In this document: positions 3,454-52,118 of the stretch, piece after piece | Layout of the letters: every line of letters begins with the position of its first letter | How positions within the stretch are numbered: the first letter of the stretch is position 1 | Assembly: GCF_963675165.1 (NCBI RefSeq) | Contig: NC_087378.1 | Span: forward strand, 8,242,809-8,306,808 | Length of the DNA stretch: 64,000 bases | From: Halichondria panicea | Lineage: Eukaryota; Porifera; Demospongiae; Suberitida; Halichondriidae | Direction of reading: 5' to 3' | Translations under genes and position numbers: made by a program | The notes under the pieces: generated by a model | Database searches by the model: none | Told to the model about the DNA's origin: nothing | The model's input: the letters and a program-made list of their open reading frames with translations, nothing else

Positions 3454-6400
3454 TGTGTGTGTGTGTGGGCGTGTGTGTGTGTGTGTGTGCAGGTACGATT
3501 GTGTTGTTACTAACATAGAATGTTGAATGTGTATACACAATCATACGTGCCAATGAACAAGCTGTCATTGAATCAACATATGTTGCAATTACACAGAACA
3601 CTGTTGTGTGACTTACCCTACGTGAGCAAAACTTCTCGAGATTGTTGCTCCTCTTCTTGACCAGCTTGGTGCTCTGTAGGAAGAGCTCTCGTGATTGCTT
3701 CATGTCCCCAGACAAACCAGCCAACACTGAAAAAGCGGTTAGTGGAATAATGACACCGTTAGAATAAACAGACCACAATTGCACTCTACCAATTCACGTA
3801 ACTCTTCAAGCCTCTCAATACAATTAAGAGAATAGTTTACAGTTAGTGACACACGACTCACCAGCTGCAAGGTAAGCATAGAAACAGGCTGACCACCGTG
3901 TCTCATTCTTCAGCCTAATGTAGCAGGGCAGAGCTTCACCATACTCCAGCTGAAGGAAGTGGACCCAGCCTATAGTGGAGAGAACAATATCACTAAACAC
4001 TGAGTGGTAGTACAAGAGCACTAACTGTTGTTTAGATATCTACAGAGTGTAATACAAACAGTGAAGTGCTGAATTGCTTTTGTTTCAAATTGAGGACACT
4101 AAAGAAACTCCAAACAATGAACAAACAGAAGACCCATAACCATCACAGTATATATAGTGTGTACTCAGTGCACCTTTCTCATAGAGTATGATGTGCTCCA
4201 CTTCCCTCTGCTCACTGGCCAGAGCTGTCGCTGCTGTGTACACTTGTAGGGCTTGTGGCAGATCACTACGCAAGTACAGAACCTTCCCTCTGAAGTACAT
4301 GAAGAGAGGAGAGTTGGCATACTCAGTAGTGGCTGTGGCTAGCAGACGCTCAGCCTCGGCAGCACCAGCTTCTTCATCCTCCCCGTCCAGAGCAAAGAAT
4401 GGACGGATGATTGTGTGGTACCACAGCAGGGATATCCTGGAGCACAAGAGATTGCCTCAACAATCATGTATAAACTATTTGCTCCTGATAGTACAATAAA
4501 CTCTATCAATGCTCTACATGGCTGGGTTAAGCGTTGGTTACACAACACGTAACCTGAAAGGTGTTTCACAAACTGAGCGCCCACTGTGTACTATGACCCC
4601 CCCTAGGTACACCCACTCACCTGGCTAGAGGAGCCTTCATATCCTGACTATTACTGGAGAACTCGAGAGCCTCCAGTCCCACTCGCCTGTTGCCTGAGAA
4701 ACCAAACAGGTTGGCTAGCTTCATCAGTTTGGGTGGTATGAGGGAGAGAATGATGTTCATCAGCCCATAACCAAAGTAGATCCCTCCTCTCAGTCGAGAG
4801 TCTGCATGCTCGAGACTGGCAATATTCGTGTCTGGAACATCTGGAGCAAAATACCCCGAGGCTGATCTACGTCCGTTATTGGCTGGTTTGGGTTTCCCAT
4901 CGGTGGCATCCTGAGGAGGGAGGCGGGGTTAGTACTGTAAGAGCATCAAGGAGGGGGGCGGGGTTAGTACTGTAAGAGCATCGCTATCATGTATACAATA
5001 CTACCACTCAAGCTTTTGTATTCTGACATAAATTTTACACAATAAGAGAGAAATTAGAAAATGAATTCAACACCAACCAACCTGTGCTGCAGGCTTGTGT
5101 TCTGTGCTGCCATTGGTCGCCTCCACAGAGCTCTGCCCACCCTCTCCGCTGCTCAGCTCTGGACACACCTCGTCTTCCCCCACTGGACAAGTCTCTCCGA
5201 TACCCAGTGAAGAAAAACCCAGCTGCATTGCAGAGAGCGTTTCATTAACATCAGCTGCTGATGCTGCGATCTCTTCATCGTTAACTTCTCCGTCATCAAT
5301 TTTCCTATCATAGATGGATGTACCGACGTGTCTGTCAGTTGGTGAGAGGGTGCCTGTCTTTGAAATGGGAGAGGGACAGGAACACAACTCCTCCATTTCT
5401 TGGTAGACCTTTTCGTACGTTTTCCATGCCTTGCGTAGTAGGTAGCCACCTTTGACGTAGCTAGTGATGCCCTGCTTGAGGAATACTAGAATGGCCTCGA
5501 ACAACATACAGTCTGCAACGATGCATCGTCTCATGATTCTTTCGTGAGGGGTCAGTCGATCTTGTGGGGCAGGGCTACTGGAGAAGAAGGTGAATCTCTT
5601 CTGCTGGTGGGAGGTACAGAACGTTTTAGTGACCTCTAAACTCTTGCTAGCTTTGTCCATAGCATCTTCCTCGAATGACATCACAGCTCGCTACAGTGTG
5701 TGTGGGGTGTGTGTGGGTGTGTGGGTGGGTGGGGGGGGGAGTGGATGTACTCTACTCTTGGTAGTATATGAGGTTAAGTTGATATAATTATAGTACCTTC
5801 ACTTTCAAAGGATTTCTGCAGTAATAACTAGTGTTCAAGCTGGCGCTGTGCTAATGCCTCTCGCCATGTTTTTGCTTTCGCTGAAAAGTATTAGAGTGTT
5901 ATATTAGTTTCTATAATATTATTATCTATATAAAGTCACTGAGAAGAAAAGACTTATTTACATGCATCTATTGTTGTATTATGTAGCTTACTAGGACCTC
6001 AAGAAAGAAGAAAATTGATTCTTCCAGGATCTGTAGTTCAGTGTATATAATATCTAAGAAGAAAAGACCTGTGCACATGCATATTGTTATCTATATGGTA
6101 GTGTTTTGTGGCTTACCAGGCCTTCAAGACAAAGATGATTCTGCCAGGAGGATCTGGATCTGGATCTTGGATATTATTTTCTCACACATGGGGAATGAGC
6201 GCGCATGCGCATTACATCCCTAGGAATAATTAAAGGGTGTGTCCAAAGAGATCAATTTCACAAATGGCTACTGCTAGCTAGCTGTTTTAACAGATATTTT
6301 CTGAGTATTGTAGCTAACAAAAAGCTAGCGCTTTAGTGCAAGGCTAACTCATATGTTGAATAGAAAGTTTGTGCGGACAGATGATGCTATGAAAGATTCT

Positions 6401-44499: not shown

Positions 44500-46254
44500 A
44501 TGGTTACATGCATGATGGCTACTAACGTACGAGCACTGCAGACTGTCAGCTTCTTGCTGATGCTAGCAATCACTGTGAATGCTAGGGTGGTTTCAGAGCA
44601 AGTACGAGGACAAGAAGACAATGGGGAAATGTCGAGAGAGTTTTTCAAACAAGGACATATTGGTGATGGTGACATTGATCAAATAAAGAAAGAAATTTTG
44701 GCGCTGCTACTGAATGATCAAGAAACCAAAGCTCAAGCTCCCTCGCAATTGCAAAGCCTGAAGACCTCGACATAAAAAAAGAAGAAATGGACCCTGAATA
44801 CAGACCAACTAGCAAACCAGAAGAAGCTCAAGCTCAAGATGGCATGTACAATCCAGATCTCTTTGAAGGAGACCTCAAGATTTCAGATAAACAGATAAAG
44901 GCCGCGTACAGAAAGTTTTCAGACGTAAGAAAAGTGACTTGTGTTCAAGATACTTTTGTAGTAGGTATCATAATTATGCATTGGTTTATTATCTGTATAG
45001 CATATTTGCATGTACACTGTAAGCTATAATATTATACACTCCCACAACAATATATTGTGTTGGTAGGCAAGTTCACACTTGCAAGGGGCATTTTAAAAAA
45101 TCAATGGGAAAAAAGCTAAATTATATAGTGAGCTTTGACTGTAAACTAGCCGAAAAAGTATACCCGACTATTCAGGCCACCCATTGTTGTTCCAAAGTGT
45201 CCAATTAGAAAACCTCAAGTCTATATAATTATGTACTTTACTGCAGGCTGAGCTTCAGAAGGCTACAAGTGACGTCAATAAACTATGGGAACTAGGATAT
45301 GTCTACTACGACTTGGATGAATCAGTTGACTATCATACGCGAACTATCATACGAGGTGCAATGGACGAATATGAGCAACACACGTGTCTAAGGTTCTACC
45401 TTAAAACCCCTACAACTACTTGGATTACACAGTTTATTCATTTTCAAAGCAGCGACCGAGGGTGTTATTCCACCTCAGTTGGGCAAGCACTCAGTATGCA
45501 AACAATCAATCTTGACAGCATAGGTTGTGCTACGCATAGTACAGTTCTACATGAAATTGGTCATGCGATCGGTTTTTGGCATGAGCAAAGTAGACCGGAC
45601 AGAGACAACTACGTTACGATAAACTGGGACAATATCAAAGCAGGCAAGGAACATAATTTTAATTTACGCCACAAAGTTGATTACCAAGATGAAGAGTACG
45701 ACTATGCTTCAATTATGCATTATCAATTGGATGCCTTCACCAGAAGTTATCAGAAAACGTTGAGCATTAACAATTTTGAGAAATTAATTGAACAAGGATT
45801 CCCTGCTGTTGGGCACGGAGAACACCTCAGTCCAGGTGATATCAGGCAGGTGAATAAACTGTACGATTGTTATAACCCATCCGGTTACTGGGGAAGACTA
45901 CGTGTTCATGTACATAAAGCGACTGGGCTACCTTCTGACACGTACTATGCTGACGTGGCTGCTATTTACACTTACGGAACTACTGGTTATGGAGTGCAGT
46001 CGTTTCCATCAACAAAATTGTCCAATAATTATCCAGCTGACTATACATGGACATATGTACATACAACCGCTAATCAAAAAAACTGGCGCTACTTCAGGAT
46101 ATGGATAACGAATGAGGAGGGAGATACAGTGATTAGTCGGCAAACCATATGGATCAAAACTTCAGGAGTAAAAGTTGAAGATTCGTACTGCTTGAAAGAT
46201 GAGCAAGATGTGGAGCGCATGAAATGTGTCTACTTCAACTACGAAATCGTTTGA
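44500..46254 (+). CDS. Astacin-C2 metalloprotease paralogue 3; protease exon intact, exon 1 frameshifted
   Basis: Exon 2 (45247-46254) codes a full astacin domain: zinc site [19 protein letters not shown] (three His and the catalytic Glu present) and Met-turn SIMHY, then [20 protein letters not shown], followed directly by a C2-like domain (WGRLRVHVHKATGLP, TYYADV, WRYFRIWI, ISRQTIWIK) and a Cys pair at the end. Astacins are secreted or membrane zinc endopeptidases; joined to a C2-like domain this is an unusual architecture. Exon 1 (44500-44924) has the signal peptide and propeptide start, but against paralogue 2 seven nt are missing near 44768, so the frame closes (LQSLKTST then TAA). The downstream half of exon 1 is open in the shifted frame and enters exon 2 in phase. 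Functional status is uncertain; an alternative splice or an assembly error could rescue it. Confidence 0.75.
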
Positions 46255-46715
46255 AAAATAACAAACAAGAAATACGTTACTTACATTGTAGCTACCAAAC
46301 TCTGTAGCATTTATTTCAGCTGACTTAATTGTGTGTAGACAGTAGTTATGAAGTATTCAACGTGTGTATAGACTGAACTTCAGTAGAGCTCTCACATTCA
46401 TACGTTTCTGTTGCTATAGCTACATGAACGTAACAGCATAGCCTTATCAGTTTTAATTTGTTGCTAGTGTTTTTCAGAGTATAAAACATGTTGTGTTTAG
46501 CAAACGGTAATGGAAATGGTCAATCTGTTAGGTATTCCTATAACATGTGACTCAGTGTATATGCACATGCACATGCTAAGCTATAATAACCGGGTAATCT
46601 TACTTTCGCTAATCCAAATAGCTTGTTCAGATTAGTGAAGGGGAGGAGTGTAGTTACACACGATAGTGATGTGTATGCACAACTCACTAAGTACAGTAAC
46701 TCTTATCTCACGTAC
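46255..46715. other. Duplicated spacer, copy 2 (MITE-free)
   Basis: About 46600-46706 duplicates 40530-40641; it preserves the empty target site of the MITE. Confidence 0.8.
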
Positions 46716-46980
46716 CGTTGTGTCCCTCGAGGGTTTGGTTCATGGAGAGGTTACTAGGGGCAGCAAGACCCTTGAGTTTAGCATCCTTGGAGGCCAGTGT
46801 CTCCAGTTGTAGTACCTTGAGTAGTCCATCCTCCCCACCACACGCTATCCAACCCTTGCTACTGTGCCATGAGATGGTTGCCAGGGCAGAGTCATTAGGG
46901 ATAGCAATCTAACAAAGGGAACTCTAAAGGAGGTATGCATGTAGGATCCATCTTACCTTCTTACTCAGATAAACTAGCAT
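46716..46980 (-). other. WDR35: Second copy of WDR35 exons 1 and 2
   Basis: Exon 1 copy 46957-46980 ([11 protein letters not shown] at 46980) and exon 2 copy 46716-46908, same lengths (24 and 193 nt), same peptide, intact GT/AG sites (donors GTAAG and GTACG), differing by only a few bases from 41205-41228 and 40964-41156. It could serve as a far-upstream alternative first exon pair (9 kb intron containing three astacin genes) or be a dead duplicate. The upstream segment with the X-box-like site is missing here. Confidence 0.9.
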
Positions 46981-47242: not shown

Positions 47243-50200
47243 TCACAACTCTGCATGAAGAGAGAGGAGTATAAAATGCACACAATTATTATTATTATTA
47301 TAGTACTCACCTTTTGCTAGAATACATATATTTTGTGCAAGTGACACATTTGATTGTCGGAGCATAACATCGACCAATATCTTGTAGGTGGCATTGAAAC
47401 CATTTTTCTCGTGCCACCTGTTCAAAACTTCTCGTGCACCATATTTTGCAGCGAATGGATCGGTTTTAATAGCAAAGATGTCAGTGGGGCTTAGTTCTAA
47501 GTCATCAGCCAGTATCTTCCAGTTAAAAATGTGTTCACTTAATGTTCTGAGTTTTTTTGGTGAGCATTCTCTTTCCAGGTCTTGCTGTGTAACACCAGTA
47601 CGTTGAATCAGATCATTGCATGTCACAGAGGTTGCAACTAGAAATGTGTTACACATACGGTAAATTAAGACACATGCACAATACCCAGAAAGTACCTTCA
47701 ACTGATTCACTCTGAGATGAGCGTGACGACAGGGAAGGAGATCTGGAAGGTGGAACTGATAGATTGAACTTTAGTCCGTCTGGGTTTGTTCCTCGAACTT
47801 CAAACGCACACTCCAGTGGTCGCAACCGCTCAGGAGTGCCATGGTTGCGTTGTATGGTTAGCACAATCCGTGGGGGGTAACTTAAGGTCATTTGTTTGTA
47901 TCTTTTATTCCTAAGCGGCAAATCAATGACATCTCGTTGGATCTGGACAATACATGAAGAACTTCAGTATGACATTGTGGATTATTAACTTACAACACAA
48001 GGGCTTATGGCTGGTGTGATGGTGGTGTCTTCAATGGTTTGGGGTATTGTAAGCTCAATCTCGTCTTCTGACAATTGGGTATGACACTGAATGTTCTCAA
48101 ATTCTTCACTTCCATACATCTTGCTCAGATAGGTTTCCAAACTCTACATTAATTTATAATCGTTAAATGTAACAATGTAAATTTTACCTTCTGGTAGACT
48201 TCATGATCTAAGGAAACTGCAAAGATGGCATGGCAAATTGGCAGGAGGACAACAGGCTTGTGAAGGCAGACCATATAGAAATTCTTCTGATCTATGGATT
48301 GATTCATTATGATGTGTACACTGTACATGTATATAGCGTAACATACTTCTCCTCTTGCGTCTTGCTAGTATTCCAAAGCAGAAGTGGCCCACATCCACAA
48401 CTACTTCCTGTTCTCCTGGCACAGTGTGAACTTCAGCAGAATCGTCTTGGACAAATTTCCATCTTGATACTTCATTACGAATGTCAGGTGTATCAAAACT
48501 GGTGAAAAAGGCAAGTTCATCTGCATCCTCGATAACGGCGAAAGTCTTTATTTTCAGCTGAACTTTTCTATGGAATACGCATGGTGGGTAGAGCAGGTAC
48601 ACAGGGCTAATTGGTACATAGCCACGACGCAGCTTAAAGGGCCCCTTCAAACAGGCCTAAACAGTTATGGGGACCGAATCGCCAGGAATGATAGCTTTCC
48701 GGGGGATGCTGACCGTGATTCCTTCTCCAATTATGACTGCACCGTCGTGATCAACTTGCTTTTGGGAACATGTTTTTGAAAATAGGACTCCAGGATAATT
48801 TAGCTTAACATCAGCAATATTCAGAACACTGAACTTAACATCACTTGAAGCTGCAAAAACAACTGAAAAACAAGTTTATAATAAATGTACACAGAATTAC
48901 CAATTGAAACAGGCTTTGCCCCATCAACAGAAGCCATTGAATCTGTGTCGCTAGCAGTACCGATCCCTGAGTCTGGCATGGTGGATGCTTGAGAGGAGAG
49001 CTTCCCAGAACTTGACTCGGAGGGTGCTGTGGCATCATCTTCATCAGTGTCGCTGCTATCAGAGGTATCAGAGGCCACTGTACGCTTGCGATGGTCGTTA
49101 CCTTCGTTACCTTCGCTATCTGAGTCAGAATCTGAAGGATACATTGGTGCCATTGAGTCTACTTCCACTTCTGATTCGTCATCTGATTGACAGGATGCAG
49201 TGGATGGTTCCTTTTCTTCATCGCTGCTAGAGTCAGAATCACTGCTGGGTAGGATGACTTCTTCATCAGAATCAGAGTCTGGATTTTGTAGGTCAACGTC
49301 AAAATCTGAAGCCATACTTTGTGTGAGGAACGTGCCAATTGTGGATCCAGTCGATACATGTGGTGTGCTTGGATTGATAACCATCTTTTTCTTAACTATC
49401 TTCTTCCGTACTTTTCTCGTCTGGGCCTGATTTCGTTGTAGAAGTTGTGGAGAAATAGCAGCTTGTGGAGGAATAGCAGCTTGTTGGTAGAAAATAATAG
49501 GAGGGATAAATGGTGGTAGCAAAGGAACCGTTGGATGAGGTGGTACAAATGGTTTGGCATTTGGATCTAATGGTTTGCGTTTGCGCTTGTGTTCAGATTT
49601 TCGGAATTTCGGATGAATGTATGGATAACGAACTAGGTCGTTGCAGTTAAAGCATCTGACATCTTGTGTAGCATGACACCTTTGATAGAATGTACGGTGG
49701 TCACATGTTTCGTTCTGACAAATGTAGCGGCCAATTCCAAACTCTAAATGCCGAGGAAGGGCATCGTATTTCACCTTACACTCATGGCAAGTAGACACAG
49801 CTTTGGTAATGAGAACTACTGTCCACCAGTAGCGATCACAATCTCCACAAGTCCAGTAAGTAAGTCATGTTTTGCCAGGGTAGCTTCGGTCAAGAGGTAA
49901 TTTGATTCAATGCCATCTTTGAGGATTTTGTCTTGATTAGTTTCTTTCATGATTTTCTGGGCTCTCTGTGAATCGCTTAAAACTTTTCGATCTGTGTTTT
50001 TTATTTTATGCTTGGTGAGAGATCCTCGCTGTAAAAACAACAAGAAATTTTATTTTTATATTTTTTATACATTAATAGTTTACCTGACAGAGTTCAAATA
50101 GTATCTGCTCTCTTGTAGAGACTATCTGGCTTCCAATGATTTCAATCCTGAGAATTCTACTTCTCATTTCTTGACATGTGATTTGTGATTGTGTGGACTT

Positions 50201-50432
50201 TCCAATTGCTTTACAGATAGCTGCGACTCGTTGGCTAGTCTGAGTGAGGTACTTTTCTCGTAAGTCCACACGTTCAATATATAACACCTGTGTATATAAT
50301 TATAACATAGATATATAAAGTATATAATACATACGTACGTACATGTAGATAGTATATAATACTGTTTATGTTGTACTATATTAGTAGATATACTGGACTA
50401 TAATTATGTACCTTTTGATTTCTTTTAGCCAT
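47243..50432 (-). CDS. SHFL (Shiftless)-like / ZU5 / Death-domain fusion gene, with one frame change and one in-frame TAG
   Basis: Nine exons: 50412-50432 (MAKRNQK), 50084-50287, 48901-50028, 48347-48850, 48188-48291, 47994-48143, 47696-47942, 47311-47637, 47243-47250 (TGA). The first three code a SHFL-like protein: REKYLTQTSQRVAAICKAIG, zinc ribbon (CGDCDRYWW, TCHECKVKYDALP, YICQNETCDH, CFNC) and the family tail INPSTPHVSTGSTIGTFLTQ, then a long Ser/Asp-rich linker. Exon 3 ends in phase 1 and exon 4 starts in phase 1 with a ZU5 domain (GEGITVSIPRKAIIPGDS, ACLKGPFKLRRGYVPISPVY), followed by a UPA-like stretch and a Death domain (KKLRTLSEHIFNWKILADDL, AREVLNRW) ending AKEL. Vertebrate SHFL blocks -1 ribosomal frameshifting and restricts RNA viruses; ZU5-Death tails occur in PIDD1/UNC5-type signalling proteins. 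Oddities: a -1 change is needed near 49855, and TAG at 48657-48659 interrupts ZU5. Without these, about 897 codons. Confidence 0.75.

Positions 50433-50640: not shown

Positions 50641-52118
<1,478 letters not shown>

Follow-up and report, generated by a model that had tools for sequence, protein, structure and literature searches.

A Shiftless-type zinc ribbon ahead of ZU5 and Death domains in Halichondria panicea: a probably disabled gene and its relatives in the same genome

Can a single animal protein join a zinc ribbon of the Shiftless (SHFL) type to a ZU5 and Death signalling tail, and is such a protein made from the gene in which this combination was noticed? The question is raised by a gene on the reverse strand of a 64,000-nucleotide stretch of the genome of the sponge Halichondria panicea (contig NC_087378.1, positions 8,242,809 to 8,306,808), hereafter called the window. 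A first-pass annotation, made from the sequence alone, described it as one chain encoded by nine exons that all fit to the final TGA. The layout is, very probably, that of one chain, as judged from the gene models of the window and two relatives; the window gene itself, which belongs to a small gene family, was probably disabled recently. Taken as a whole, we lean towards an explanation that combines a disabled family member with a SHFL-ZU5-UPA-Death chain that would act as a switch similar to PIDD or NLRP1.

Gene layout and relatives in the same genome

The features of the window gene are collected in Table 1. With Pfam PF15135 (UPF0515; cut-off 29.8 bits) its SHFL part scores 61 bits at an E-value of 1.5e-16, and exon 8 reaches Pfam Death (PF00531) at 2.3e-6 with 28.1 bits against a cut-off of 22.6, both at the places assigned to them in the first-pass annotation. 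The junction between the end of exon 3 (48901) and the start of exon 4 (48850) has GT/AG sites and lies in phase 1 in the zinc-ribbon frame, and the TGA expected at the end of the last exon is present. Regarding the surroundings, a GT repeat of ~520 bases (window about 51243-51763) apparently lies within an intron of the upstream gene, an exon of a WDR35/TULP4-type beta-propeller gene (46708-46908, reverse strand, Pfam 4.8e-24) is found just downstream, and an astacin-type metalloprotease ORF occupies 45232-46254 of the forward strand (Pfam 9.2e-50).

Table 1. Parts of the nine-exon gene and the positions of its two breaks (window coordinates).
Feature	Position	Strand	Details
Nine-exon gene	50432-47243	-	GT/AG sites throughout; SHFL zinc ribbon, acidic linker, ZU5-type part, Death
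Exon 1, ATG start	50412..50432	-	GT donor; short first exon (6-7 codons) also in L019 and L020
Exon 2, N-terminal domain of unknown kind	50084..50287	-	GT/AG sites, open frame
Exon 3, SHFL part and acidic (Ser/Asp-rich) linker, in two frames	48901..50028	-	
Premature stop TAG ending the frame of exons 1-2	49816..49818	-	Preceded by a 22-base gap in the comparison with L019 and L020
SHFL-type zinc ribbon, CxxC-16-CxxC and further Cys pairs	49589..49849	-	Pfam UPF0515; match to 9kbo_A
INPSTPHVSTGSTIGTFLTQ motif, SHFL tail match	49319..49378	-	Profile alignment to 9kbo_A HPSNPHISSGSTVATCLSQ
Exon 4, ZU5-type domain	48347..48850	-	Equivalent exon of L019 reaches Pfam ZU5; 49% identity to L019
In-frame TAG within ZU5	48657..48659	-	Sense codon in both relatives
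His-Phe-Cys closing ZU5, at the position of the HF/S autocleavage motif	48378..48386	-	HFC in 3/3 copies
Exons 5-7, UPA-like stretch	47696..48291 (48188-48291, 47994-48143, 47696-47942)	-	GT/AG sites, open frames
Exon 8, Death domain (core 47354-47554)	47311..47637	-	Pfam Death 28.1 bits
Exon 9, frame end with TGA 47245-47243	47243..47250	-	Tiny last exon common to L019 and L020

A profile search of the window's own genome with UPF0515 (131 Mb, 39 contigs; 8/8 candidates scored) gave six matches, namely the window, C2:7.128 Mb, C1:17.395 Mb and three at C2:8.191 Mb. Two of these relatives share the nine-exon layout: L019 (C2, about 7.126-7.129 Mb), which lies on the same chromosome as the window, and L020 (C1, 17.395 Mb). 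L019 is open from ATG to stop over 855 residues, with nine GT/AG-spliced exons and no internal stop, and carries, in this order, UPF0515 at residues 89-282 (1.2e-21, 77.8 bits), ZU5 at 448-535 and Death at 767-832. Its ZU5 passes the cut-off of 21 bits narrowly (21.7 bits in the whole protein, 23.3 in the tail alone) and its Death match, at 17.8 bits, stays below the cut-off of 22.6; no family other than these three, and no leucine-rich repeats, were found in the whole-protein Pfam scan at E up to 1. In L020, exons 3-9 form an open frame of 800 codons, and the nine-exon model is out of frame because exon 2 (L020 4134-4338, forward strand) is 4 bases longer than that of L019. Over 731 codons the protein identity of L019 and L020 is 75%, and that of the window to either is 45-46%. 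The three remaining matches are neighbouring short SHFL-like ORFs of 136, 128 and 153 residues (C2:8191030-8192874; L021 4419-6470, reverse strand), about 50 kb from the start of the window, which score 32.7-33.1 bits with UPF0515 and show no second family over cut-off. The HMM search of the two halves that had been proposed as a check on the fusion finds all three families, SHFL, ZU5 and Death, and the outcome of the proposed checks mostly speaks for a fusion.

That the two halves belong to one gene is well supported by the gene structure of the three loci. Intron 3, which lies between the halves, measures 50 bases in the window, 257 in L019 and 88 in L020. In exon 4 of L019 and L020 the first in-frame ATG follows about 128 and 125 residues, respectively, and thus comes after the part matched by Pfam ZU5; window exon 4 has none. 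A ZU5-Death gene standing alone would then have no start codon before the ZU5 core, which, together with the short intron, makes one gene far likelier than two. Two adjacent genes, a SHFL homologue and a ZU5-Death gene, might nevertheless mimic a fusion: standalone SHFL-like ORFs are present in the genome, and retention of intron 3 in L019 would end the SHFL frame no more than 14 bases past the donor (the ORF ends at 4599 and the exon at 4613), which makes a SHFL-only product from L019 possible. Against this stands a junction common to three loci, and two genes appear very unlikely. As for the claim of one SHFL-ZU5-Death chain, the order is supported by the 855 residues of L019 and by the open exons 3-9 of L020, but not for the window copy, which is broken twice; a coupling of frameshift or viral-RNA recognition to death signalling, as put forward in the first-pass annotation, would be hypothetical.

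Two breaks in the window copy

The frame of the spliced exons 1-2 enters exon 3 and stops at 49816-49818, and the zinc ribbon is encoded in another frame, open only from 49864. The alignment attributes this early stop to the absence of 22 bases just before the first CxxC of window exon 3, bases that both L019 and L020 have. Between the frame opening of the zinc ribbon and its first Cys there is no acceptor AG in window exon 3, so splicing cannot join exons 1-2 in frame to the whole ribbon, and the first ATG of the zinc-ribbon frame in this exon, at 49384, lies behind the ribbon. The second break is the TAG at 48657-48659, without which the zinc-ribbon frame would be open from the ribbon as far as the final TGA. 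This stop cuts the ZU5 domain, and for this reason both halves, taken separately, fall below Pfam ZU5. A mere listing of GT..AG stretches of multiple-of-three length over this TAG gives 39, which is uninformative, and each of them would remove sequence around the TAG. The initial statement that all nine exons fit to the final TGA has thus to be withdrawn: interrupted twice, the window locus as sequenced cannot make the fusion chain by ordinary translation, and the copy is quite likely disabled.

Selection between the copies was estimated from a codon alignment of the open pieces (731 codons, leaving out exons 1, 2 and 9, the residues around both breaks and gapped columns) with our own three-taxon codon model of the window, L019 and L020. 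On the branch from the window to the L019/L020 node, which carries about 2.2 substitutions per codon, dN/dS is 0.25 (2dlnL 137 against 1); this branch includes the L019/L020 stem and the low value is therefore not specific to the window lineage. For L019 and L020 jointly dN/dS is 0.43 (2dlnL 45), and singly both are weakly below 1 (2dlnL 4.0 for L019 and 3.0 for L020); single blocks leave the L019/L020 value unresolved, e.g., 4.5 for the Death block of L020 with 2dlnL 0.2. This shows that most divergence between the copies took place under purifying selection. Of the 6579 single changes possible in the 731 aligned codons, 290 would create a stop, and with only one stop and one frame break seen, the figures suggest that the window copy was lost recently.

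Both breaks are read from one assembly only, in which a base or haplotype error is possible. Assembly or single-haplotype errors, with the gene intact in other reads or animals, could account for the presence of just one frame break and one stop among exons whose frames are otherwise open and whose GT/AG sites are kept. However, the copies differ by 22 bases at the first break, which is no homopolymer slip, and the other is a clean in-frame stop, so that errors are an unlikely explanation. Recoding, i.e., a -1 frameshift ahead of the zinc ribbon combined with read-through of the TAG in a copy that remains functional, would fit exons open from the ribbon to the TGA except for that one TAG, and an autoregulated copy is conceivable since SHFL is known to lower frameshifting and read-through (PMC8310280); yet the 49-base overlap of the two frames contains no slippery heptamer of the searched form, the canonical A_AAA_AAC that occurs in frame in exon 3 (49996-50002, reverse strand; probably chance in an A-rich stretch) cannot lead to the ribbon by a -1 shift at 50002 because a stop immediately before 49864 closes the zinc-ribbon frame, and the 22 extra bases and unbroken exon 3 of both relatives are the pattern of a plain deletion, which leaves recoding with hardly any probability.

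Comparison of the parts with known proteins

With a profile of the three copies, SHFL itself (9kbo_A, E 8e-16, residues about 87-260) is the only solved chain matched at E up to 1, and this match includes the tail HPSNPHISSGSTVATCLSQ. The CxxC-16-CxxC ribbon and a WW pair are kept in 3/3 copies, all of which fit the spacing CxxC-15/17-CxxC given for SHFL (PMC11055011), and additional Cys pairs across the domain known as RAA or -1PRF and a HPSNPHISSGST-like tail add to the likeness with SHFL/C19orf66 (UPF0515; 9kbo). In contrast to SHFL, the part is here embedded in a chain of 855 residues and followed by ZU5, a UPA-like stretch and Death, and three RNA-binding arginines are not kept. In human SHFL, mutation of R131, R133 and R136 reduces RNA binding and frameshift inhibition (PMC8310280, PMC9230503); at the equivalent places each of the three copies has 0/3 arginines; L019 and L020 have Lys at the equivalent of 133, and the window has it at the equivalent of 136. 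Over the 28 residues from the first Cys, the basic residues number 10 in human, 7 in L019, 8 in L020 and 4 in the window. A different study reported that RNA and ribosome binding required the Cys pairs and not the basic residues, the latter having mattered for Gag-Pol suppression (PMC11055011). With the arginines absent and the Cys pairs kept, docking of the SHFL part on ribosomes or RNA is plausible, and frameshift inhibition as in human is less so.

The N-terminal exon 2 matches no Pfam family over cut-off. In L019 and L020 it is suggestive of a KH-like fold, weak at best: the KH profile gives 8.0 bits for L019, 7.2 for L020 and -0.5 for the window, and hhalign of the three exon-2 rows against 16 KH stretches of the genome gives a probability of 35% and P 4e-4 (three controls, 0.57, 0.0088 and 0.59). 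A YdaS match of window exon 2, at 19.6 bits against the 30-bit Pfam cut-off, was taken as chance. Searches of the PDB gave nothing with exon 2 and only a homeobox at 0.14 with the three rows, and AlphaFold of exon 2 alone had a mean pLDDT of 45.3 and yielded no usable model.

With the tail profile (ZU5 to Death, three copies) 25 solved sequences are obtained at E up to 1. The death domain of THOC1 is a clear match (3.5e-6), followed by weak matches to FAS (0.01), RIPK1 (0.04), CRADD (0.08), FADD (0.16) and NRADD (0.42); two unrelated chains are also included (0.48 and 0.75), and no solved ZU5 is found among the matches at this limit. Pfam at E up to 10 recovers ZU5 in 2/3 and Death in 3/3 rows of the tail. 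There is no Pfam UPA match in the tail, and the UPA label refers only to the position between ZU5 and Death.

Elsewhere in the genome, ZU5 has 27 matches (80/80 candidates scored), which include L019 but not L020 or the window, and Death has at least 148 (150 of 503 candidates scored), which include the window but not L019 or L020. Loci on C14, C17 and C9 that have a related Death exon also carry a ZU5-like exon, and of four such exons chosen, those of L054 and L055 (C14) pass Pfam ZU5 and those of L049 (C17) and L056 (C9) do not. It is possible that these ZU5 and Death loci are the source of the tail. At the end of ZU5, HFC is found in all three SHFL fusions and F-S in the four chosen exons, two of which have HFS. 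PIDD cuts itself at HF/S, and CARD8 and NLRP1 do so at SF/S, reactions of a class in which the nucleophile can be Ser, Thr or Cys (PMC3210808).

A possible switch and its relation to known systems

The architecture resembles PIDD1 (LRR-ZU5-UPA-Death) in its C-terminal order of ZU5, UPA-like stretch and Death and in the HF that closes ZU5, and differs from it in that L019 has no LRR (Pfam, E up to 1) and that Cys stands for Ser after HF. With NLRP1 and CARD8 (FIIND-CARD) it shares a putative sensor part followed by a ZU5-UPA unit and a death-fold domain, as well as possible autocleavage, although here the last domain is Death and not CARD, the N-terminal part is of the SHFL type, and HFC is found versus SFS. 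A PIDD/NLRP1-like mechanism with a Shiftless-type sensor is put forward tentatively, as a reading with appreciable but limited chances. The protein would be a cytosolic switch in which RNA, ribosomes or RNA-binding proteins are the docking site of the SHFL part; its ZU5-UPA unit would hold a UPA-Death fragment, and perhaps free it by self-cutting at HF/C, and the Death domain would gather death-fold partners for an output of the caspase or NF-kB type. The window copy would have lost this function through the frame break in exon 3 and the stop in exon 4.

Alternatively, the tail may be structural, a scaffold like those of UNC5 or ankyrins, and the SHFL part a general adaptor in ribosome stress with no role in immunity or death. 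ZU5-UPA is indeed also present in UNC5b and ankyrins (PMC3210808), and SHFL has been suggested to take part in ribosome surveillance (PMC10747187). Nevertheless, the Phe of the autocleavage motif is kept here, where UNC5b has Leu (PMC3210808), and in this genome the Death exon is one member of a much expanded group, which renders a purely structural tail rather improbable.

Within the switch reading, a more specific variant to which we attach little probability can be formulated, in which the SHFL part is a bait for virus-coded factors directed at Shiftless, whether by binding, cutting or degrading it. Once the N-terminal part is lost, an already cut UPA-Death fragment would be set free and would kill the cell. 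NLRP1 and CARD8 free a death-fold fragment likewise, with other baits. A mammalian virus has been reported to antagonize SHFL (PMC13185607). If this tripwire variant were true, an antiviral effector and its own guard would be one protein.

Proteins in which Death, TRADD-N or ZU5 units are joined with RNA domains or variable sensing domains are already known from marine invertebrates (PMC8195603, PMC12909245), a likeness to the chain described here. Invertebrate TRADD-N proteins are fused to FIIND or UPA-ZU5, and others to RNA-handling domains (PMC8195603), and NACHT-ZU5 genes occur in early-branching animals (PMC12909245). The difference is that no SHFL is named among these fusions in the available portions of the two papers; in the sponge paper (PMC12909245) 'Shiftless' has 0 occurrences. 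Among the literature matches listed, no report of SHFL with ZU5 or Death was found; many journals lay outside the search, and a description may exist. Profile scans gave no relatives of the fusion in viral and prokaryote contig collections, whose viral and prokaryotic content makes this no evidence of absence in animals. The SHFL literature, as far as its available portions go, deals with vertebrates, a frog being the more distant species in one phylogeny.

With a SHFL core joined to a death-signalling tail in an invertebrate, the family would have a place in cell-intrinsic immunity beyond the interferon context. The fusion would add an RNA-linked sensor to the domains that are plugged into ZU5-UPA-Death, and it offers a direct test of whether recognition of the SHFL type triggers cell death.
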